NCBI RefSeq assembly: GCF_004138215.1
Contig: NZ_RYYS01000020.1
Coordinates: 62,001-126,000, forward strand
Length of the DNA stretch: 64,000 nt
Source: Anaerophilus nitritigenes
Lineage (GTDB): Bacteria > Bacillota > Clostridia > Peptostreptococcales > Thermotaleaceae
Direction of reading: 5' to 3'
Shown here piece after piece: positions 2,567-51,575 of the stretch (position 1 is the first letter of the stretch; each line of letters begins with the position of its first letter). Both the position numbers and the translations under genes were made by a program. The notes beneath the pieces are model-generated. The model made no database searches, had not been told where the DNA came from, and worked only from the letters and a program-made list of their open reading frames with translations.

Positions 2567-4078
2567 ATGAATAAAGGAAAGGTTTTCTTAATTGGAGCAG
2601 GTCCTGGAGATTATAAACTCATTACTATAAAAGGGTTAGAGTGTATTAAAAGGGCAGATGTAGTACTTTACGATCGATTAGCAAGTCCTAGACTTTTATC
2701 TTTTGCAAAAGAAGATTCAGAAATGATTTATGTAGGAAAAGCTCCTAATAATCATGCCTATACTCAAGATGAAATTAATGAATTGATTTTAAAAAAAGCT
2801 TTAGAAGGAAAAGTTGTTGCAAGACTTAAAGGGGGAGACCCTTATGTATTTGGAAGAGGTGGAGAAGAAGCAAAGGTTTTAAAAGATCATCAAGTGCCTT
2901 TTGAAATTGTACCAGGTATCACATCTTCTATAGCGGTTCCATCCTATGCTGGCATTCCAGTAACCCATAGAAATGTAAGTTCTTCCTTTCATGTGATTAC
3001 AGGAAATGAAGATCCTACAAAAGAAGAAAATGTAATTGATTATGAAGCATTGGAAAAGGTAGAAGGTACTCTTATTTTTTTAATGGGTATTAAAAATTTA
3101 GATAAAATTTGTAAAAGTCTTATAAAATTTGGACAAGATCCGAATAGACCAGTAGCTGTAATTATGAAAGGAACTACTTCAAATCAAAAAATGGCAAAAG
3201 GCACATTGTCTGATATTTATCAAAAAGTGAAAGAAAATAATATTCAAAATCCGGCTATTATTATTGTAGGAGAAGTAGTAAATTTATCTGAAACGTTAAA
3301 TTGGTTTGAAAACAAACCATTATTTGGAAAAAACATATTAGTTACAAGAACGAGAACACAAGCAAGTGCTTTGTCTGAAAAATTGGAGGATTTAGGAGCA
3401 AATCCAATAGAGTTTCCTACGATTCGAGTTGAAAAACCTAAAGAATATGAAAAAATTGATAAAGCCATAAAACAAATTGACAAATATAAATGGATTATAT
3501 TTACTAGTGTCAATGGAGTATATGCCTTCTTTGAAAGATTAAAAGAGTTAAAGATAGATGTGAGAAATCTGTATAATGTGAAATTAGTAGCTATAGGAAC
3601 TGCCACTCAAAAAGCTTTAGAAGATAAAGGATTATTGGTAGAGTATGTACCAGATGTATTTAGAGCAGAAGCTATCATAGAAGGATTAAAAGATAAAATC
3701 CATAAAGGAGATCATATTCTTTTACCAAGAGCAGACATTGCAAGAACTATTTTAATTGAAGAATTAGAAAAAATGGGTGCTTTGGTAGATAATATATCTA
3801 TTTATCATACAACAATTCCAAATGTAGATAAAGAAAAATTAATCAATATATTAAAAGAAGGAATAGATCTAATTACTTTTACTAGTTCTTCTACTGTTAA
3901 AAATTTCATAGAGATTTTAGGAGAAGAAAATAAAAAATTATTAAAAGATATAACTATTGCAGTTATAGGACCTATTACAGAACAAACTGCAAAAGATATG
4001 GAACTAAAAGTAGATATTAGTGCAGATGAATTTACAATTGATGGACTTGTAGATTCTATTTTAAAATGGAATAAATAG
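2567..4078 (+). CDS. cobA-hemD: Fused uroporphyrinogen-III C-methyltransferase / uroporphyrinogen-III synthase
   Basis: A two-domain 503-aa protein. Residues 1 to about 245 are a tetrapyrrole methylase ([10 protein letters not shown] start, [33 protein letters not shown]) that makes precorrin-2 from uroporphyrinogen III with SAM. From about residue 250 ([11 protein letters not shown]) to the end is a HemD domain that closes hydroxymethylbilane into uroporphyrinogen III ([27 protein letters not shown]). The fusion is common in Clostridia. It starts 12 bases after hemC, with AGGCAGGTG upstream. Confidence 0.95.
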
Positions 4079-4089
4079 GAGAGATAAAA

Positions 4090-5064
4090 ATGGATTTTAT
4101 TCACAGACCAAGAAGATTAAGAACAAATAAAGCTATAAGAAGTTTAGTAAGAGAGACTATACTTAATGTAGATGATTTTATTTATCCTTTATTTGTAGTA
4201 GAGGGAGAAGGAATCAAAGAAGAAATTGAAAGTTTAAAAAATAATTATCATTTCTCAATAGACATGTTAAAAGATGAGATCCAAGAGATTGTAAGTCTTG
4301 GAATAAAAGGAGTTATTTTATTTGGACTACCAAATAAAAAAGATTCTTATGGAAGTGAAGCTTATAGTGATGAAGGAATTGTACAAAAGGCTATAAGAGA
4401 AATAAAAAAAATAAATGAAGATATTTTAGTTATTACAGATGTTTGTATGTGTCAATATACAGATCATGGTCATTGTGGAATCATAAAAAATAATTATGTA
4501 CAAAATGATATGACTTTAGAATATATTGCAAAAATTGCCCTATCTCATGCTAAAGCAGGAGCAGATATGGTAGCACCATCAGATATGATGGATGGAAGAA
4601 TAAAAGCTATTCGAGAAGAATTAGACAATAATGGATTTGAGGATGTATCTATTATGGCTTATAGTGCAAAATATGCTTCAGCTTTTTATGGACCTTTTAG
4701 AGCTGCAGCTCATTCAACTCCTAGCTTTGGAGATCGAAATACTTATCAAATGGATCCTGCAAATACAGATGAAGCCATAAGAGAAGTTAAATTAGATATA
4801 GAAGAAGGGGCAGATATTGTCATGGTAAAACCGGCGCTTTCTTATCTAGATGTAGTAAGGAGAGTAAAAGATACATTTGATGTTCCACTAGCTGTTTACA
4901 ATGTAAGTGGCGAATATGCAATGGTAAAAGCGGCTTTTGAAAGAGGTTGGATTGATGAAAAAAGAATTGTCTTAGAAAAATTACTATCTATGAAAAGAGC
5001 AGGAGCAGGAATAATCATTACTTACCATGCAAAAGATGCAGCTAGATGGTTAAGAGAGGAGTGA
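4090..5064 (+). CDS. hemB: Delta-aminolevulinic acid dehydratase (porphobilinogen synthase)
   Basis: A 324-aa enzyme that condenses two 5-aminolevulinate molecules to porphobilinogen. Visible signatures are the N-terminal R-P-R-R-L-R-T motif, the zinc-site cysteines in [14 protein letters not shown], and the two active-site lysine regions ([14 protein letters not shown] and [11 protein letters not shown]). The three cysteines point to the zinc-dependent class. TAGGAGAG lies just upstream of the ATG, 11 bases after cobA-hemD. Next in the operon is hemL. Confidence 0.97.
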
Positions 5065-5068
5065 GCAT

Positions 5069-6358
5069 ATGGAGTTTACAAAATCAAAAGCTTTATTTGA
5101 AGAAGCAAAAAAGTTTATCCCAGGAGGAGTAAATTCTCCTGTAAGAGCATTTCCTTCTGTCAATATAGATCCTCCCTTTATTCAAAGAGGTAAGGGAAGC
5201 AAAATATATGATGTAGATGGAAATGAATATATTGACTATGTAGGATCATGGGGACCTCTGATATTAGGACATGCTCATCCTGAGGTGATAAGTGCATTAA
5301 AGGATGTTATGGATCTAGGAACAAGCTATGGAGCTCCTACAGATCTTGAAACAAGACTCTCAAAGCTTGTTTGTGAAGCTGTACCGTCTGTTGAAATGAT
5401 AAGAATGGTAAATTCAGGAACAGAAGCAACTATGAGTGCCCTAAGACTAGCAAGAGGATATACCAAAAGAGATATTATTGTTAAATTTGAAGGAAATTAT
5501 CATGGTCATTCAGATAGCTTGCTGATTAAAGCAGGATCAGGAGCGTTAACATTTGGAGTTCCTAATAGTCCTGGGATTCCACAAGATATTGCAAAAAACA
5601 CTATTACAGCAAAATATAATGATATAGAGGGCATTACAAATATATTTGATAGATTTGGAAAAGATATAGCAGGAGTAATTATTGAGCCGATCTCAGGAAA
5701 CATGGGGGTAGTTCCTGCTACAAAGGAATTTATGAATCATCTTAGAAAAATTACGAAAGAATATGGATCACTTCTCATTATCGATGAGGTAATGACAGGT
5801 TTTAGAGTTTCTTTTCATTGTGCTCAAAGCTTATATAATATAGATCCAGATATTACAACTTTTGGAAAGATCATTGGTGGAGGACTTCCTGTAGGCGCTT
5901 ATGGAGGGAAAAGAGAAATTATGAAGCATATTTCTCCAATAGGAGATATTTATCAAGCTGGGACTTTATCTGGAAATCCATTAGCTATGACAGCAGGATA
6001 TATAACTTTGAAAATATTAAAAGAAAATCCTTATATTTATGAAGAATTAGAAGAAAAGTCTAAAATGTTAGAAAATGGTTTTGTAGAGAACACAAAAAAA
6101 ATAGGAGTAAAAGCCACATTTAATAGAGTAGGATCCATGCTTTGTATGTTTTTTACAGAAAAGAAAGTCGTAGATTTTTCATCTGCTATGACGAGTAATA
6201 CGAGTCAGTTTGCTATCTATTTTGAGGAAATGTTAAAACAAGGGATTTATTTAGCACCTTCTCAATTTGAAGCAACATTCCTAAGTGCAGTGCATACAAA
6301 AGAAGAAATACAAAAGACAATCGAAGCAAATTATCATGCACTCAAAAAAGTTATTTGA
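5069..6358 (+). CDS. hemL: Glutamate-1-semialdehyde 2,1-aminomutase
   Basis: A 429-aa PLP enzyme of the class III aminotransferase fold that turns glutamate-1-semialdehyde into 5-aminolevulinate in the C5 pathway. The N-terminal [13 protein letters not shown] motif is diagnostic, followed by [15 protein letters not shown] and the PLP lysine in [18 protein letters not shown]. It sits four bases after hemB with AGAGGAG upstream. HemL implies a glutamyl-tRNA reductase (HemA), which is not encoded in this window. Confidence 0.97.
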
Positions 6359-6418
6359 TAGATATGAAATAGATGATATAATGAATGATGAAAATTTAAC
6401 GAAGAAGGAGAATTAAAT

Positions 6419-6916
6419 ATGAGTATATATGAACAATGGAAAGCTATAGCATATGAACATGAAAGTCAAGAGAGTTTTAATAAATTTTGGGACAAATATG
6501 CTATTACAGAAAAAAGAATTTATGAAGATGTGTTAACAAATTATAAAGAGAATGTACTAGGAACTATAAAAGAATTAGTAGAAAAATATGACACTACAGG
6601 ACCAGATTTTATGGGATTTTTGGATGGAATTAATGAAAGTTTAAAAAAATCTTTAAACTTAGAAGAAATTAATGAAGACAGCTCTATTCATCTTGAAATT
6701 GATTTTGAAAAACTTTACTATAATATGTTAGAAGCAAAAGCTGATTATCTATATACACTACCACAGTGGGATGTTATTTTAGATGAAGAAACAAGAAAAG
6801 CAATTACAAAAGAACAAAGGAATTCTAAAACTATCATAAAAGAAGATAAAATAGGAAGAAATGATCCTTGTACTTGTGGAAGCGGTAAAAAATACAAAAA
6901 ATGTTGTGGAAAATAA
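6419..6916 (+). CDS. SEC-C motif protein of unknown function
   Basis: A 165-aa acidic protein. Residues 1 to about 140 are helical with no recognisable catalytic motif. The last 22 residues form a SEC-C zinc motif ([18 protein letters not shown]) with the four metal-binding cysteines, as found at the C-terminus of SecA and in many stand-alone proteins. It is 60 bases downstream of hemL with a good AGAAGGAG site and ends just before a strong terminator, so it may be the last gene of the hem operon or have its own weak promoter. Only the motif can be named; the role is unknown. Confidence 0.8.
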
Positions 6917-6925
6917 AATTTAAAT

Positions 6926-6972
6926 AAAAAGACTACTGCATTAGGGGTTACTTTAAGGCAGTAGTCTTTTGT
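6926..6972. terminator. Bidirectional intrinsic terminator
   Basis: AAAGACTACTGC and its complement GCAGTAGTCTTT form a 12-base-pair stem with an A-tract on the left and a T-tract on the right. It can end the hem operon on + and the convergent aminotransferase on -. Confidence 0.85.
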
Positions 6973-6988
6973 TGTTAAGGAAAGTTAA

Positions 6989-8185
6989 TTATTTTTTGTT
7001 TGGATACTTTTCAAGGGCTATTTTTAAAATTTCCATAGCTCTTTTTAAATCTTCTTCTTTTAAAATATGTGCAATCCTGACTTCATCTTTTCCCATGCCT
7101 TTTGTTGTATAAAAGCCTTGACCAGGAGCAAACATGACTGTTTCATTATTTAAGTCAAAATCTTTCAAAAGCCATATTACAAATTCTTCAGCATCTTGTA
7201 CAGGAAGCTTTGCGATTACATAAAAAGCTCCTTTTGGTTTTTGACAAAAAACTCCTGGAATTTTTATAAGCCCTTCATAAACTGCATTTCTTCTTTTTTG
7301 GTATTCACATAAAACTTTTTCAAAATAATCTGTCTCTACATGATAAAGCTCTGTAGCTCCTATTTGTTCAAGGGTTGGACAACAGAGTCTTCCTTGACAT
7401 AGCTTTAAAATTTGTGCAATCAATGCTTTGTTTTTACTTAAAATAGCACCTATTCTTGCACCACAAGCGCTAAATCTTTTAGATACACTATCTACTAAAA
7501 TTACTTGTTCACAAATATCTTTCATATCACAAAAGCTTGTAAATTCTAGATCATCATAAACAAATTCTCTATATACTTCATCAGAAATAATGAAAAGACC
7601 ATGCTCTTTTGCCACATCAGCTAAAAGTCTAACTTCTTCTTTTGTATAAACTACTCCAGTAGGATTGCCTGGATTAGAAAGAAGAATAGCTTTTGTACGA
7701 GAAGTAATTAATTTTTCAATATTTTCTTTAGGTGGAATATGAAAGCCATCTTCAGCTTTTGTAACAAGAGGAATAGTTTTGATTCCTGCAATAGTAGAAA
7801 AGCCTGCATAATTAGAATAAAAGGGTTCAGGAACAATTACCTCATCTAAGGGATCAGCTACAGCTTGAAGTGCAAAGGATAGAGCTTCACTTCCTCCATT
7901 TGTGATTAAAATTTCATCTTTTTCAAAAAATAAATTGTATTTTTCATAATAATCTATCATAGCAGCAATTAGTGTTGGCATTCCTTCAGAATATGAATAA
8001 GCTAATATTTTTTCATCAAAGTTTTTAATTGCTTTCATAAAACCTTCAGGAGTAACAATATCTGGTTGTCCAATATTTAAATGATAGATTTTTTTCCCAT
8101 TCGATTTTGCTTCTTCAGCATAAGGAGTTAACTTTCGAATAGGAGATGCGCCCATAGTTATGATTCTTTTAGAAAAATTTTTCAT
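6989..8185 (-). CDS. PLP-dependent class I/II aminotransferase (aspartate aminotransferase-like)
   Basis: A 398-aa fold-type I aminotransferase. Signatures are L-N-I-G-Q-P-D-I-V-T-P, T-N-G-G-S-E-A-L-S-F-A, S-N-P-G-N-P-T-G, I-S-D-E-V-Y-R-E-F and the PLP lysine in D-S-V-S-K-R-F-S-A-C-G-A-R-I-G. The replacement of the usual S-K-x-x-x-x-x-G-x-R by S-K-R-F-S-A-C-G-A-R is typical of a clostridial AspC-like branch. The substrate cannot be read from sequence; aspartate or an aromatic or branched-chain amino acid are all possible. It is transcribed alone, with a GGAGG site (AGGAGGACC) before the ATG. Confidence 0.88.
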   Translation of the reverse strand: MKNFSKRIITMGASPIRKLTPYAEEAKSNGKKIYHLNIGQPDIVTPEGFMKAIKNFDEKILAYSYSEGMPTLIAAMIDYYEKYNLFFEKDEILITNGGSEALSFALQAVADPLDEVIVPEPFYSNYAGFSTIAGIKTIPLVTKAEDGFHIPPKENIEKLITSRTKAILLSNPGNPTGVVYTKEEVRLLADVAKEHGLFIISDEVYREFVYDDLEFTSFCDMKDICEQVILVDSVSKRFSACGARIGAILSKNKALIAQILKLCQGRLCCPTLEQIGATELYHVETDYFEKVLCEYQKRRNAVYEGLIKIPGVFCQKPKGAFYVIAKLPVQDAEEFVIWLLKDFDLNNETVMFAPGQGFYTTKGMGKDEVRIAHILKEEDLKRAMEILKIALEKYPNKK

Positions 8186-17744: not shown

Positions 17745-17806
17745 GATTATAAAGAAAGTTAATAATAAAAAAAAATAAATGAATATTCTTAATTCTGAAT
17801 GAAAAA

Positions 17807-17984
17807 TGCGGGAGAGAATCCATAGAGGATCGCCGAAGGGACAAGCAAAAGATATTGCCTATCTTTTGTGAAATTCTCAGGCAAAAGAACTGTATTTGGA
17901 CAGAACTCTGGAAAGCTTATGAATGGCATCAAAGGAGTATATTTCAATTAAGGAGAAATTCTTAGGGTAAAGACAGAGACATAT
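17807..17984 (+). ncRNA. Glycine riboswitch, tandem aptamers
   Basis: Aptamer 1 (about 17807-17915) has the family landmarks GCGGGAGAGA, CGCCGAAGGGACAAG, TTCTCAGGCAAAAGAAC and TGGACAGAACTCTGGA. Aptamer 2 follows directly, with GCATCAAAGGAGTATA matching the GCACCGAAGGAGCAA position and TTCTTAGGGTAAAGACAGAG matching the CTCAGGTAAAAGGACAGAG position. Its core departs from consensus. The 3' strand of aptamer 2 P1 overlaps the 5' arm of a terminator, as expected for a glycine-on switch. It controls the glycine reductase operon below. Confidence 0.9.
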
Positions 17985-21646: not shown

Positions 21647-22957
21647 ATGAGCAAAATTAGAGTTGTTCATTATATTAATCAATTCTTTGCAGGAATTGGT
21701 GGAGAAGAAAAAGCAGATACAAAACCTGAATTAAGAGAAGGTATAGTAGGACCAGGGATGGCTTTAAAGGCTGCATTTAAAGAAGAAGCAGAAGTTGTAG
21801 CTACAGTAATTTGTGGAGATTCTTATTTTAATGAAAACTTAGAAGAAGCTAAGGCTGTTGTTTTAGATATGGTAAAAAAATATGATCCAGATTTATTTAT
21901 TGCAGGACCTGCTTTTAATGCAGGAAGATATGGTGTAGCTTGTGGAACAATTAGTAAAGCTGTGCAAGATGAATTAGGTATTCCAGTTGTAACGGCCATG
22001 TATCCAGAAAATCCTGGAGTAGATTTATTTAAAAAAGATGTATATATTGTACAAACAGGAAATTCAGCTGCTACTATGAGAAAAGCAATTCCTGTTTTAT
22101 CAAAATTAGCTTTAAAATTAGGAAAGAAAGAAGAAATAGGTTCACCAAGTGAAGAAGGGTATATTTCTCGTGGAGTAAGAAAAAATATTTTTAGAGAAGA
22201 AAGAGGATCAAAACGTGCAGTAGATATGCTGATTCAAAAACTTAAAGGAGAAGAATTTGTCACAGAATACCCAATGCCAAACTTTGATCATGTTACACCA
22301 GGTAAAGCAGTTGAAGATGTTTCTAAAATAAAAATTGCACTAGTTACTTCTGGTGGAATTGTTCCAAAAGGAAATCCAGATCATATTGAATCTTCAAGTG
22401 CATCAAAATATGGAAAATATTCTATTGAAGAATTTGATGATTTAACACATGAAACACATGAAACAGCTCATGGAGGATATGATCCTGTTTATGCCAATGC
22501 CAATGCAGATAGAGTACTCCCTGTAGATGTTTTAAGAGATTTTGAAAAAGAAGGGAAAATTGGTAAACTACACAAATATTTTTATACTACTGTAGGAAAT
22601 GGTACCTCTGTTGCTAATGCTAAAAAGTTTGCAGCACAATATGCAAAAGAATTAATAGCAGATGGAGTAAAAGCTGTTATTCTCACATCTACCTGAGGTA
22701 CCTGTACACGTTGCGGTGCAACAATGGTAAAAGAAATAGAAAGAACAGGCATTCCAGTAGTACACATGTGTACAGTTGTTCCAATATCGTTGACAGTTGG
22801 GGCAAATAGGATTGTACCTACTATTGCTATACCTCATCCACTAGGCAATCCATCCTTAGATCCTATAGATGAGAAAAAATTAAGACGTAAATTGATTGAA
22901 AAAGCATTAAAAGCATTAGAGACTGAAGTTGTGGATCAAACTGTTTTTGAAGATTAA
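21647..22957 (+). CDS. grdB: Glycine reductase component B gamma subunit, selenoprotein
   Basis: A 436-aa selenoprotein with an in-frame TGA at 22694-22696 (residue 350) in S-T-U-G-T-C-T-R-C-G. It starts V-V-H-Y-I-N-Q-F-F-A-G-I-G-G-E-E, the GrdB hallmark, and continues after the UGA through H-M-C-T-V-V-P-I-S to a normal C-terminus. The selenol attacks the glycine Schiff base held by GrdE and releases ammonia. A hairpin GTTGC-GGT-GCAAC begins 14 bases after the UGA and fits a bacterial SECIS. The ATG at 21647 follows AAGGGGGG. Operon position is grdE-grdA-grdB. Confidence 0.97.
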
Positions 22958-36500: not shown

Positions 36501-36602
36501 ACTCTTATCAAGAGAAGTGGAGGGAACGGGCCCATTGAAGCTTCAGCAACCAGCATTATGCCAGGTGCTAAATCCTGCAGAACGTTGTTCTGAAAGATGA
36601 GA
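36501..36602 (+). ncRNA. SAM-I riboswitch (S-box)
   Basis: Core landmarks in order are CTTATCAAGAGAAGTGGAGG, GAAGCTTCAGCAACCAGC, CCAGGTGCTAAATCCTGCAG and GAAAGATGAGA. P1 pairs CTCTTATC with GATGAGA. SAM binding should favour the terminator at 36643 and turn off metF and metH. Confidence 0.95.
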
Positions 36603-36642
36603 AAAGGTGTATATTATGCTCATAGAGCGATATTAGGTAAAG

Positions 36643-47852: not shown

Positions 47853-48038
47853 TTGGATATACTAAAAGTTAAGGGAAATACTTACTGCATTGATACTGGA
47901 ATGATTTATATACCATTTTATAAAATGAATGATCAAGAAATTATTATGTTAGATACAGGGTTGGAAAAAGAAGACCGTCAGGGTATAGAAGAAGTTTTGG
48001 AAAAAAACAATTTTAAGGTTACAGCTATTTTAAACAGT
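47853..48038 (+). CDS. MBL-fold metallo-hydrolase, 5' exon (interrupted by IStron)
   Basis: The first 62 codons of a metallo-beta-lactamase-fold hydrolase: TTG start after AAGGAAGGAG, then V-K-G-N-T-Y-C-I-D-T-G, I-I-M-L-D-T-G-L and V-T-A-I-L-N-S. Read straight through, translation stops at 48047 inside the inserted element. If the segment 48039-50492 is removed, the frame continues into H-A-H-I-D-H at 50493, giving a 296-aa protein with an intact zinc motif. The gene is therefore either a knockout or is rescued at the RNA level by the group I intron in the insert. Confidence 0.85.
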
Positions 48039-48455
48039 AAACAATAGTTTATAAAATCTTATAAAAAGATTATAAAAATATAAACTATACTGCGTATGTA
48101 GAGAAATCTGCATAGGACACCACTTTAAAACCAGTAAATCCTAAAGCCTTACTACCACAATAAGAGATAGAATCAGAAACTCTTATGAAGGTGTGAAAAC
48201 ATAACAAGTGTAAGGATAGCATATGGTTAAATCCTAAGTGCTGATACAATGGAAATTTGGTCGCCAAGCCTAGAAATAGGAAGGTCAAACGACTATTCCG
48301 AGAGGAAGTAAAGCCCTAAGCGATTGAGGGAGGAAATGGGTGGCTCTTAACGGGTAATGCCGAAGATGAAGAAATAGTCTTTGCACGTTCTGAAAGGAAG
48401 TGGTCATTAGCGTGAGCGAAATGGCATCTATGAGGTAGCGTTCATAGATAAAAGA
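48039..48455 (+). ncRNA. Group I intron ribozyme core of the IStron
   Basis: The 5' end folds back: ATAGTTTATA (48044-48053) pairs with TATAAACTAT (48079-48088), and next to it host CAGT (48035-48038) can pair with ACTG (48089-48092), a P1-like helix. The catalytic core is recognised by CAAACGACTATTCCGAGAGG, by the P7 strands GACTATT (48291-48297) and AATAGTC (48373-48379), which are fully complementary, and by GGTAATGCCGAAGATGAAGA just before the second P7 strand. These are typical of subgroup IA-like bacterial introns. No protein is encoded in this part. Confidence 0.85.
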
Positions 48456-48500
48456 GTATAAACTTTATAAAAAATATAAATACTTTATAATTTTTATAGA
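48456..48500 (+). repeat. Inverted repeat arm, left
   Basis: GTATAAACT, a variable A-run, then 26 bases that are exactly complementary to 50440-50465. It separates the intron core from tnpA. Confidence 0.85.
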
Positions 48501-48544
48501 CTTCTTTCTGTAGTTATATTAATATAATTGTAGGAGGTGGTCTT

Positions 48545-49153
48545 GTGAGAAAATATTCGATTGGTCAATTTGCTAAAAAAATAAATAAGACACAACAAAC
48601 TCTCCGAAATTGGGATAAAAGTGGAAAACTTAAACCTCAAATAGTTGATGAAAATACAGGATATAGATACTATACTGAAAAACAACTTAAAGAATTTTAT
48701 GGAGAAGTGAGCAACAAAGAAAGAATAGTTATAGGATATTGTAGAGTTTTTAGTGCTAAACAAAAAGAAGCACTTGAAAGACAAATAGAAAATGTAAAAA
48801 CTTATTTAATCTCAAAAGGATATCAGTTTAAAATAATATCCGATATTGGAAGTGGGATAAATTATGACAAAAAAGGCTTAAACCAACTAATTCAAATGAT
48901 TCTACAAGATGAAGTTTCTAAGGTTGTTGTGCTATATAAAGATAGACTTGTTAGATTTGGATTTGAACTTATAGAAAATATATGTGAATTTAAATCAATA
49001 GATATAGAAGTTATAGATAGCACAGAAAAATCAGAAGAACAAGAAGTTGTAGAAGATTTGATACAAATAATCACAGTTTTTAGTTGCAGACTTCAAGGTA
49101 AAAGAGCAAAGAAAACTAAAGATATGATTAAGGAGTTGGCGAATGATGATTAA
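48545..49153 (+). CDS. tnpA: IS607-family serine recombinase TnpA with substituted active-site Ser
   Basis: A 202-aa protein. Residues 1-55 are a MerR-type HTH (Y-S-I-G-Q-F-A-K-K-I-N-K-T-Q-Q-T-L-R). The resolvase domain follows with V-I-G-Y-C-R-V, K-D-R-L-V-R-F-G and a C-terminal helix, as in IS607 recombinases. The motif that normally reads R-V-S-S reads R-V-F-S here: Phe69 is where the nucleophilic serine is expected, and the codon TTT is one change from TCT. The adjacent Ser70 remains. If the alignment is right, the enzyme is inactive. GTG 48545 follows AGGAGGTGG; it overlaps tnpB. Confidence 0.9.
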   Translation: MRKYSIGQFAKKINKTQQTLRNWDKSGKLKPQIVDENTGYRYYTEKQLKEFYGEVSNKERIVIGYCRVFSAKQKEALERQIENVKTYLISKGYQFKIISDIGSGINYDKKGLNQLIQMILQDEVSKVVVLYKDRLVRFGFELIENICEFKSIDIEVIDSTEKSEEQEVVEDLIQIITVFSCRLQGKRAKKTKDMIKELANDD

Positions 49154-50321
49154 AGCTATTAAAGTTAGACTATATCCTACTAAAAAACAAGAAGAATTGA
49201 TGTTTAAAAGTGCAGGTGTGGCTAGATTTTCTTATAATTGGGGACTTTATTATCTTAATAACTGTTATAAAGATAATAAAAAATCTTTATCAATAGGTGA
49301 ATTAAGAAAAGTTTTCACTAAATTAAGAAATAGTAATGAATTTCCTTGGCTAAAAGAAGTATCAGCAGAAATACCACAACAAGCACTTAAAGATTTAGGA
49401 GAAGCTTTTAGTAAATTCTTCAACAAAGAAGCTGATTATCCTAAGTTTAAGAAAAAGGGAAAATGTGAAGTTTCATTCTTTCATTTAAATAACAAATTCA
49501 AAGTTGAAAATAAACATATCAGCCTTGAAAAAATAGGCTATGTAAAAATGAAAGATGAAGACAGACTTCCTGTTGGTAACTATAAAAAAGATAAAATTAA
49601 AGTCTTAAATCCGAGAATAAAGCATAACGGAAAGTTTTGGTATCTATCATTAGGATTAGAATTTGATGATATGGAGAAACAAAAACTTACTAATGAAAGT
49701 ATTGGAGTGGATTTAGGAATCAAGGATTTAGCAATAGTTAGCAACATAAATAAACCTTTTAAAAACATTAATAAATCTAAAGAAGTTAAAAGATTAAATA
49801 AGAAACTTAAAAGACTACAAAGAAAAGTTTCAAGAAAATATGATAAGTTGAAATCTGAAAAAGCCTTCCAAAAAGGTGAAAGACTTACTAAAACCCAAAA
49901 TATCATAAAACTTGAAAAAGAGATAAAACTTGTTCATAAAAGAATTGCAGATATACGCTTAAATCATATACATCAAACTACTAATGCGATAGTGAAAACC
50001 AAACCGTCAAGAATAGTAGTTGAGGATTTAAATGTAAAAGGAATGATGAAGAACAAACATCTATCTAAGGCAATTGGGGAACAAGGTTTTAATAAATTCC
50101 TAACTATTCTTAAATACAAGTGTGAGTGGAGAGATATAGAATTTATAAAAGCAGATAAATTCTTTCCAAGTAGTAAAATGTGTTCTTGTTGTGGAACTAT
50201 CAAGAAAGATTTAAAACTTAAAGATAGGACTTATAAGTGTCCTAATGAAAAATGCAATCTTGTGCTTGATAGGGACAAAAATGCAAGTATTAATTTAGCA
50301 AATTATAAATTAGTAGTTTAA
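49143..50321 (+). CDS. tnpB: TnpB RNA-guided nuclease
   Basis: A 392-aa TnpB of full length. N-terminal helical region begins I-K-A-I-K-V-R-L-Y-P-T-K-K-Q. The RuvC residues are all present: Asp in G-V-D-L-G-I (about 188), Glu in V-V-E-D-L-N-V-K-G (about 292), Asp in L-D-R-D-K-N-A-S (about 375). A zinc finger C-S-C-C ... C-P-N-E-K-C lies between the last two. It should cut DNA matched by an omega RNA read from the right end of the element. It overlaps tnpA by 11 bases. No frameshift or missing catalytic residue. Confidence 0.93.
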   Translation: MMIKAIKVRLYPTKKQEELMFKSAGVARFSYNWGLYYLNNCYKDNKKSLSIGELRKVFTKLRNSNEFPWLKEVSAEIPQQALKDLGEAFSKFFNKEADYPKFKKKGKCEVSFFHLNNKFKVENKHISLEKIGYVKMKDEDRLPVGNYKKDKIKVLNPRIKHNGKFWYLSLGLEFDDMEKQKLTNESIGVDLGIKDLAIVSNINKPFKNINKSKEVKRLNKKLKRLQRKVSRKYDKLKSEKAFQKGERLTKTQNIIKLEKEIKLVHKRIADIRLNHIHQTTNAIVKTKPSRIVVEDLNVKGMMKNKHLSKAIGEQGFNKFLTILKYKCEWRDIEFIKADKFFPSSKMCSCCGTIKKDLKLKDRTYKCPNEKCNLVLDRDKNASINLANYKLVV

Positions 50322-50492
50322 TCACTAAAAAGATACTACTAATATGTAGACATTGACGAGGTCGAATTTAAGCCTTTCGAGTGTTACATCAAACCAAAGT
50401 AGCTAATGCAAAATGGGACACGATGAAGAAGGAAATAAATCTATAAAAATTATAAAGTATTTATAAAAAAATTATAGAGTTTATACGTCAGT
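50322..50492 (+). ncRNA. Probable omega RNA (TnpB guide RNA) scaffold
   Basis: The 170 bases between the tnpB stop and the right end hold no ORF and are more G/C-rich at first (ACGAGGTCG, CCTTTCGAG). TnpB elements make their guide RNA from this position, with the guide taken from the flanking host DNA, here starting at CATGCTCATATAGATC in the second exon. The exact scaffold and end need RNA data. Confidence 0.6.
50440..50486 (-). repeat. Inverted repeat arm, right
   Basis: Complement of 48456-48500: the first 26 bases match exactly and the outer GTATAAACT part with one change. In RNA the two arms would pair and loop out tnpA-tnpB. Confidence 0.85.
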
Positions 50493-51197
50493 CATGCTCA
50501 TATAGATCATATTGGGAATAATGCATATTTTAAAAATAAATATAATTCTATCGTTGCTATGTCTGTTTATGAAGCTCTTATTTGTAGTTCAGAGGTTAAT
50601 CTTAAGCTTTTTTATGGAAATTATACCCTAGAATCTATAAAGAGATATTATGGGCATATGGTTTGTAAAACAGACATTACAATAGAGGATAGTCAAGATG
50701 AAATATTATTATGTGGTGTTCATTTTAAAATTATGCATACACCAGGGCATAGTCCTGCTCATATATGTATTATAACCCCTGATGATGTTGCTTATATAGG
50801 AGATGCTCTTATAAGCTATGAAGTAATGGAGAGGGCAAAAATGCCATATGCATATATATTAAGTGAGGACATAAAGAGTAAGAGAAAACTTTATAACCTA
50901 AATTGTAGCAAATATATAGTTGCCCATAAAGGAATATATAACAATATTACAAAATTAATAGATGATAACATAAATTGTTATGAAAGTAGAGCAATGAGAA
51001 TATATGAAGCAATAGACGGATCTATGAAGATGGATGACATTTTGAAAAGTGTCATTAAAAGGTTTAATATTCATGTAAATAATATATATAGATATTATTC
51101 TATAGAAAGAAAGCTAAAATCTTATGTGGAATATTTATATGAAATTAAAAAGCTTAAGTTAATTATGGAAAATGGATTTCTTAAATATACAAAATAA
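50493..51197 (+). CDS. MBL-fold metallo-hydrolase, 3' exon
   Basis: Begins H-A-H-I-D-H-I-G-N-N, the zinc-binding H-x-H-x-D-H motif, in the frame that continues exon 1. It goes on with H-T-P-G-H-S-P-A-H, Y-I-G-D-A-L-I, V-A-H-K-G, which supply the other metal ligands, and a C-terminal winged-helix-like region of about 80 residues. On its own the first ATG (50559) would give a protein without the zinc motif. Function is not known. In the joined form it is 296 aa, normal for the family. Confidence 0.85.
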   Translation, partial: HAHIDHIGNNAYFKNKYNSIVAMSVYEALICSSEVNLKLFYGNYTLESIKRYYGHMVCKTDITIEDSQDEILLCGVHFKIMHTPGHSPAHICIITPDDVAYIGDALISYEVMERAKMPYAYILSEDIKSKRKLYNLNCSKYIVAHKGIYNNITKLIDDNINCYESRAMRIYEAIDGSMKMDDILKSVIKRFNIHVNNIYRYYSIERKLKSYVEYLYEIKKLKLIMENGFLKYTK

Positions 51198-51281: not shown

Positions 51282-51304
51282 TATTTTCAACATCATAAAC
51301 TTAA

Positions 51305-51575
51305 ATCGATGAATAAGAGTAGTAAGTATATTGAAGGATTGTAGAGAGTCGGTGTTGGTGAAAATCCGATATTTGTAGATATACTGAATGGACTTATGAG
51401 TTGGAGCTGAAAAGTTTAGTAGGCAACACGGGTATCTCCCGTTATAGAGATAAGATATCGGAACAATTCCCGTATCTGAGAAAGTGGGTTATTTATTTTG
51501 ATAACCAATTGAGGTGGCACCACGTATATAGCGTCCTCTATGTGTTTGTATAAACATGTAGAGGATTTTTTAATT
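51305..51575 (+). ncRNA. T-box leader, tryptophan specific
   Basis: Stem I begins near AAGAGTAGTAAG and contains AGAGAGTCGGTGTTGGTGAAA. The antiterminator T-box sequence is GAGGTGGCACCACG (51531-51544). In the specifier region TGG (51402-51404) precedes AGCTGAAA, which fits uncharged tRNA-Trp and the trpB gene downstream. A terminator, GTCCTCTATGTG with CATGTAGAGGAT and a U-run (about 51533-51573), completes the switch. Uncharged tRNA would allow readthrough. Confidence 0.93.

Follow-up and report, generated by a model that had tools for sequence, protein, structure and literature searches.

How can a gene keep its function when a transposon sits in the codons of its active site? The question is raised by a 64,000-nucleotide (nt) stretch of the Anaerophilus nitritigenes genome (contig NZ_RYYS01000020.1, positions 62,001 to 126,000; the window in what follows), where a 2454-nt element interrupts the active-site (zinc-motif) codons of a gene for a metal-dependent hydrolase of the metallo-beta-lactamase (MBL) fold. 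The insert, at 48038-50491 on the + strand (first bases TAAACAATAG, last bases TTTATACGTCAG), is almost certainly an IStron of the IS607 type, and the sequence makes it highly probable that splicing of this copy restores the hydrolase. The locus offers a natural experiment on the ways in which transposons may hide in coding sequence: insertion into a catalytic motif should destroy the enzyme unless splicing repairs the mRNA.

Exon 1 (47853-48037, + strand) has a TTG start and ends in ..AAACAG (..TTTTAAACAG), and exon 2 (50492-51197, + strand) runs from (S)HAHIDH through the stop codon, with a match to Lactamase_B (Pfam PF00753) from profile position 51. In the joined frame, ILN(S) closes exon 1 at 48037 and (S)HAHIDH opens exon 2 at 50492, the phase being unchanged. 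The insert-free open reading frame (ORF) encodes 296 amino acids (aa) with the MBL fold, carries the Lactamase_B domain and the HxHxDH motif, and aligns without gaps over its full length with all 12 uninterrupted orthologues, which come from other species and are 63.5-78.7% identical to it. An earlier note on this DNA had described a hydrolase interrupted at its zinc motif with the frame kept, and this holds, with the register shifted by one base. Because CAGT occurs at both junctions, the insertion can be read in more than one register, and 48039-50492 and 48038-50491 are one insertion, one base apart. We set the boundaries by the published convention for IS607-type (group B) IStrons, namely G before the element, U as its first base, and G as its last (PMC4227781).

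The 5' part of the element is a group I intron that extends from P2 to P9.2 (48086-48462, + strand). We tested a group I structure with a P3/P7 pseudoknot on an alignment (A1) of 27 introns, two of them partial. All 78 tested pairs form in the window, 94.8% of 2055 cells in A1 are paired, and 55 of the 78 pairs show changes on both sides, a fit favored by the fact that the structure was partly derived from the same sequences. The covariation score is 0.549, compared with a mean of 0.218 for shuffled alignments (none of 500 as high) and a maximum of 0.137 when the partners were slid. P7 (48291-48295 and 48375-48379 in the window) is invariant across A1 and gives no covariation information. A covariance model of the core (R1), built from 21 relatives with the window and loci L149, L150, and L174 left out (L, G, and C numbers are our labels for loci, genomes, and contigs), finds the core at 48249-48380 (+ strand) with 127.7 bits (E = 1.3e-25). 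On L097 and L207, which are elements without an intron, R1 reports no match at E ≤ 10. It does find a phage locus, L210, with 112.7 bits; Rfam labels L210 Intron_gpI (95.9 bits), and the locus is followed by an endonuclease annotated as intron-associated. With blastn, the core also has matches (E ≤ 0.01) in 71 records from phages and 25 from plasmids, some of the matches being short or AT-rich and outside the core. By its resemblance to a description in PMC4227781, the intron may be labeled IA2-type.

In the minimum-energy fold of 48020-48520, the internal guide sequence (IGS) UACUG (48088-48092, + strand) is base-paired to exon CAG together with intron UA (48035-48039). In a table of 24 sites, pairing of the three final exon bases with the IGS occurs at every one, wobbles allowed, and none of 20,000 shuffles scored as high; orthologous introns enter the table once per type, and the sixth site of genome G417 (L157) is left out. 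Within a class, the sites are related by descent and do not count as independent. The stronger point is that the solutions differ, and four exon/IGS combinations occur: CAG/CUG, AGG/CCU, GGG/CCC, and GGAG/CUCC.

Related copies, which we collected by similarity to the element and blind to the host gene, provide a further line of evidence. All 17 resolved intragenic copies lie in the sense orientation with the joined frame intact; orientation at random would give this about once in 131,000. Both junctions are resolved in 11 (the window, L149, L150, L151, L153, L165, L166, L087, L088, L094, and L095), those of L087, L088, L094, and L095 having been read by eye. The six copies in G417 are split across contig ends and were matched by eye from separate ends and codon phase (the six 5' halves all in phase 1, the six 3' halves all in phase 2). 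Their hosts encode a Clp ATPase, a molybdopterin-binding protein, a short-chain dehydrogenase, WecB, a TasA-like protein, and a small protein, the first four identified by Pfam and the last two by eye. The WecB pair alone has Pfam continuity over the junction (profile positions 119 and 122), in the Clp pair the junction separates Clp_N from AAA, and one 5' end (L154) begins with AAA, not TAA. The weakest of the 17 is L149, which also has a long antisense frame. Seven elements measure 2454, 1880, 1930, 1866, 2457, 1854, and 1804 nt. The earlier note had counted a length divisible by three in favor of splicing; the length is as it said, but it carries no weight, because in-frame elements of 1880, 1930, and 1804 nt are not multiples of three. 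We dropped from the count L090 (sense, in the 5' untranslated region beside the start codon), L092 (unclear junction), L096, L175, L184, L186, L089, L091, and L093 (ends or host unclear), L152 (at a contig end, no long upstream ORF), L185 and L187 (remnants, no host ORF), introns in which no insertion sequence (IS) genes were found (L085, L167, L181-L183, and the L168-L180 type), and L174 (ORF-less and apparently in frame, its 3' end read by eye only). The Tourasse survey (PMC4227781) lists 118 of 202 IStron sites as intragenic, 64 of these 118 in-frame; the words "orientation" and "antisense" are absent from its main text as searched. One of the 17, L165 (G556, about 3439-5292), splits the cysteinyl-tRNA synthetase gene cysS after about 20 codons, and no second close cysS copy was found in the one-contig G556 genome.

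Splicing is thus supported by the gapless ORF, by a covarying core that R1 links to an Rfam-recognized phage intron, by the exon/IGS pairing, by copies that are uniformly sense and in frame, and by the interruption of a cysS that has no second close copy. This favors the cautious suggestion of the earlier note that splicing may still allow the hydrolase to be produced. The explanation as a whole is further supported by the presence of the RAGATH-18 RNA and the TnpB RuvC residues described below and by a hydrolase without relaxed constraint.

Splicing of this copy is nonetheless inferred from sequence, and a number of observations weigh against it. Rfam model RF00028 (Intron_gpI) gives no match in the window, at its gathering cut-off or at E ≤ 10, a true negative for that model and, by itself, the outcome that the earlier note had named as refuting its 5' intron; the R1 match answers it. 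If that silence were taken at face value, the 5' region might be a structured transposon end and not a working group I intron; this is very improbable in view of the R1 match, the way in which exon/IGS pairing tracks the target, and the connection with an Rfam-recognized intron of a phage. RF00028 at E ≤ 1 is also silent on ten related-intron loci (L085, L087, L094, L095, L104, L116, L149, L150, L153, and L209), and because these were missed too, the model is insensitive for IStron-type introns. Since it missed 11 of the 11 such introns tried, annotation may wrongly mark genes with such insertions as broken. A GAACGA-type motif, listed after P9.2 in IStrons by the 2014 survey (PMC4227781), was not seen by eye between P9.2 and the IS part in the window. 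The window intron has U at +1 opposite an IGS A, and three of the six G417 5' ends have the IGS GCUG, which gives U-G. In G556, the fourth codon of cysS exon 2 is ATG, from which downstream translation is possible; we rejected this cysS as proof of splicing, its value being weakened by that codon.

An internal start has to be considered for the hydrolase as well. A 212-aa ORF is open from an ATG at 50559, and exon 2 alone could be translated from there into a shortened protein with another role. Such a product would be without HAHIDH, and the full 296 aa are kept in all 12 orthologues, so we give this reading hardly any credence. The intact hydrolase ORF could also be explained by a very recent insertion that is not spliced. 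The ratios of nonsynonymous to synonymous substitution rates (dN/dS) between the window and orthologues L006, L007, and L008 are 0.135, 0.220, and 0.166, and dN on the window branch is about that of its sisters; no decay or relaxed constraint is visible, which is no proof of maintenance. We rejected dN/dS as a dating test for the insertion, since it shows no decay and cannot prove upkeep. A recent knock-out, in which the ribozyme is intact by descent, too little splicing occurs in this mRNA, and the strain has lost the hydrolase, would also predict an intact ORF and a normal dN/dS, and the single full copy in this genome and a TnpA that looks inactive fit it. It does not lead one to expect 17 resolved intragenic relatives that are all sense with the frame restored, or a core in which every tested pair is formed, and we consider it unlikely. 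Restoration of the hydrolase by splicing is the reading that we prefer.

In the mechanism that we propose, the 5' ribozyme in the hydrolase transcript would pair exon CAG with its IGS and cut after that G, and the G of exon 1 would then be joined to the U that follows the terminal G of the element, so that the mRNA would encode the uninterrupted 296-aa enzyme. At the 5' end, each of the three frames has a stop codon (48038-48054, + strand, starting at element nt 1, 8, and 15), and these stops may serve to keep ribosomes off the ribozyme. The copy, being without the TnpA catalytic serine, probably persists because it is able to splice. In transcripts left unspliced, the RAGATH-18 scaffold would be followed by the initial 20 nt of exon 2, which would direct TnpB to the uninterrupted allele. 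An IS607 IStron is reportedly known whose transcript yields either spliced mRNA or TnpB guide RNA. The near-neutrality that the earlier note proposed for the element is unproven, and incomplete splicing or the action of TnpB could carry a cost.

The remainder of the element has the layout of an IStron, with the IS genes downstream of P9.2 and inside an AU-rich inverted repeat (5' arm 48456-48508, + strand; 3' arm 50432-50486, a reverse-strand match with 84% identity). The IS607-type tnpA and tnpB named in the earlier note are borne out by Pfam: tnpA, for a serine recombinase (48545-49153, + strand), matches Resolvase and MerR, and tnpB (49143-50321, + strand) matches OrfB_IS605 and Cas12f1-like_TNB. 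Its account of the insert was right about these genes and the group I core and overlooked the RAGATH-18 guide RNA, residue 69 of TnpA, and the ACAG target class. The serine of the RVS motif is the nucleophile in resolvases. In the window TnpA, which has the fold and family matches, its position is occupied by Phe69 (codon 48749-48751), and it is Ser in three aligned Protein Data Bank chains and in L097, L153, L207, and L208. Because Phe replaces the catalytic serine, TnpA is probably without catalysis, and it is quite likely that the copy is immobile by its own transposase. No second full-length TnpA was found in any ACAG-class element in five genomes searched with TnpA; in G417 the best match has 39% identity, in G585 there is a 33-residue fragment, and a 66% match in G587 belongs to an intronless GG-target element.

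The window genome (G000) holds one full IStron copy, one 5' remnant on contig C40, and one intronless IS607 element on C14. The remnant (L187/L004, about 223517-223591) is 75 nt of a related IStron and is preceded by ATAG. The intronless element (L097, 1625-3575) and L207 in G587 have GG-type ends and TnpAs 65% identical to that of the window, and L097 has a RAGATH-18 RNA.

TnpB has the same RuvC acidic residues as solved relatives, and a RAGATH-18 RNA (RF03064, 67.1 bits; 50373-50434, + strand) lies downstream of its gene. In IS607 elements, RAGATH-18 marks the TnpB guide RNA (right-end element RNA, reRNA), the flank beyond the element supplies the guide, and 20 nt is optimal in ISFba1 (PMC11061315). 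By analogy in position and length, the predicted guide is 50492-50511 (+ strand), which codes for (S)HAHIDH, and it is likely aimed at the empty allele. ACAG precedes the guide stretch in 3 of 12 orthologous empty sites, with two (L006), one (L007), and five (L016) guide mismatches.

The ACAG flank (48034-48037, + strand) is the target word and, we expect, the target-adjacent motif (TAM) of TnpB. It precedes all ten non-remnant copies of its class (the window, six G417 sites, L149, L150, and L174); of the remnants, L185 is preceded by ACAG and L187 by ATAG. Ten copies of a second class (L151, L152, L153, L165, L166, L087, L088, L090, L094, and L095) follow GG, and their 3' ends, read in nine, are CAACGG or GTAACGG. 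The window element, with ACAG before it and ..GTCAG at its end, has neither the GG target nor the CGG end of the group B GG type. The IS607 overlap dinucleotide is GG (PMC4058570); the shared pair of the ACAG class would be AG. At the positions of K80 and K83, which read the TAM in ISFba1 and which we mapped with a three-residue offset, all three ACAG-class TnpBs have E and Q, and L151, L153, L165, L166, and the intronless L097 have N and K. We tentatively suggest, as a possibility somewhat short of even, that IStrons can be retargeted as a whole: the IGS CUG, the AG end and overlap, and the TAM-reading TnpB residues of the ACAG class would all have shifted from the GG class, with selection holding recombinase, nuclease, and ribozyme to one four-base word, and the window guide might allow homing between species. 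The guide lies on invariant zinc-motif codons and is therefore a near-match to orthologues of other species (in L007, an ACAG flank and 19 of 20 guide bases). GG-class L090 (Q, A), L094 (K, A), and L095 (Q, Q) speak against retargeting, in that Q at the second position is not peculiar to ACAG, since L095 has it too; and three ACAG-class TnpB sequences from one lineage cannot show repeated joint change. The two classes do allow a test of whether the specificities of recombinase, RNA-guided nuclease, and ribozyme must change together. Neither the ACAG class nor joint retargeting is described in the open literature searched (parts of PMC4227781, PMC11061315, PMC12558985, and PMC4058570), a scope outside which the main recent IStron paper lies. 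The element belongs to a known kind, and the possible coordinated retargeting is the lead that it offers.

Several other loci are of note. L088 (G330, about 6100-7350), an IStron with a damaged tnpB, lies sense and in frame in a guaA-like gene (named by eye), and L174 (G567, 4930-5313), an intron or IStron of the ACAG class that has no ORFs, lies in a gene resembling those for DNA cytosine methyltransferases. Intron pieces about 20 and 220 nt from the right ends of G417 contigs C38 and C53 (L158 and L159) suggest ORF-less ACAG copies. In Staphylococcus phage vB_SauM_VL10 (L209, 48561-53762), the portal gene has been annotated as several fragments and is accompanied by two transposase ORFs and two RAGATH-18 RNAs; this one phage gene probably contains two IStron-like insertions. 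A group I intron without IS genes (L085, L167, and L181), preceded by ACAGGGGG, is matched in all eight genus-g42 genomes, the flanks having been read in three of the eight; at L085 it stands upstream of a permease-like ORF. A related intron without IS genes follows GAGG at nine loci in several genera (L168, L169, L171, L173, L176, L178, L179, L180, and L160), which looks like a shared old location, and an acetyltransferase-like ORF comes after it at L169. The window also holds a T-box leader (51300-51541) ahead of a PALP-family (trpB-like) gene, a SAM riboswitch (36502-36603), a glycine riboswitch (17799-17902), and a SECIS_4 element (22697-22734).

Among known systems, the example chosen by the earlier note, CdISt1, does not fit, being of the IS200/IS605 type, unlike the IS607-type window element (PMC4227781). 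The closer counterparts are group B (IS607) IStrons such as BcISt1, which splices in vivo, and CbISt2; the window element shares with them the 5' group I intron, IS607 tnpA/tnpB, an AU-rich inverted repeat, G|U..G boundaries, and the lack of a target duplication (PMC4227781). Most of group B has GG before the element and a CGG end, whereas the window element has ACAG before it and a CAG end. By its description in the survey, where it is a group B deviant, CsISt1 of Clostridium sporogenes also stands after AG and ends in CAG; it has ORF B only, whereas the tnpA of the window is full length though its product is probably inactive (PMC4227781). As in ISFba1, TnpB is followed by a RAGATH-18 RNA and a flank-derived guide, but the published TAMs are AGGAG or GAGGG (PMC11061315), and the window element has AAACAG at its flank and E and Q at the K80/K83 positions.

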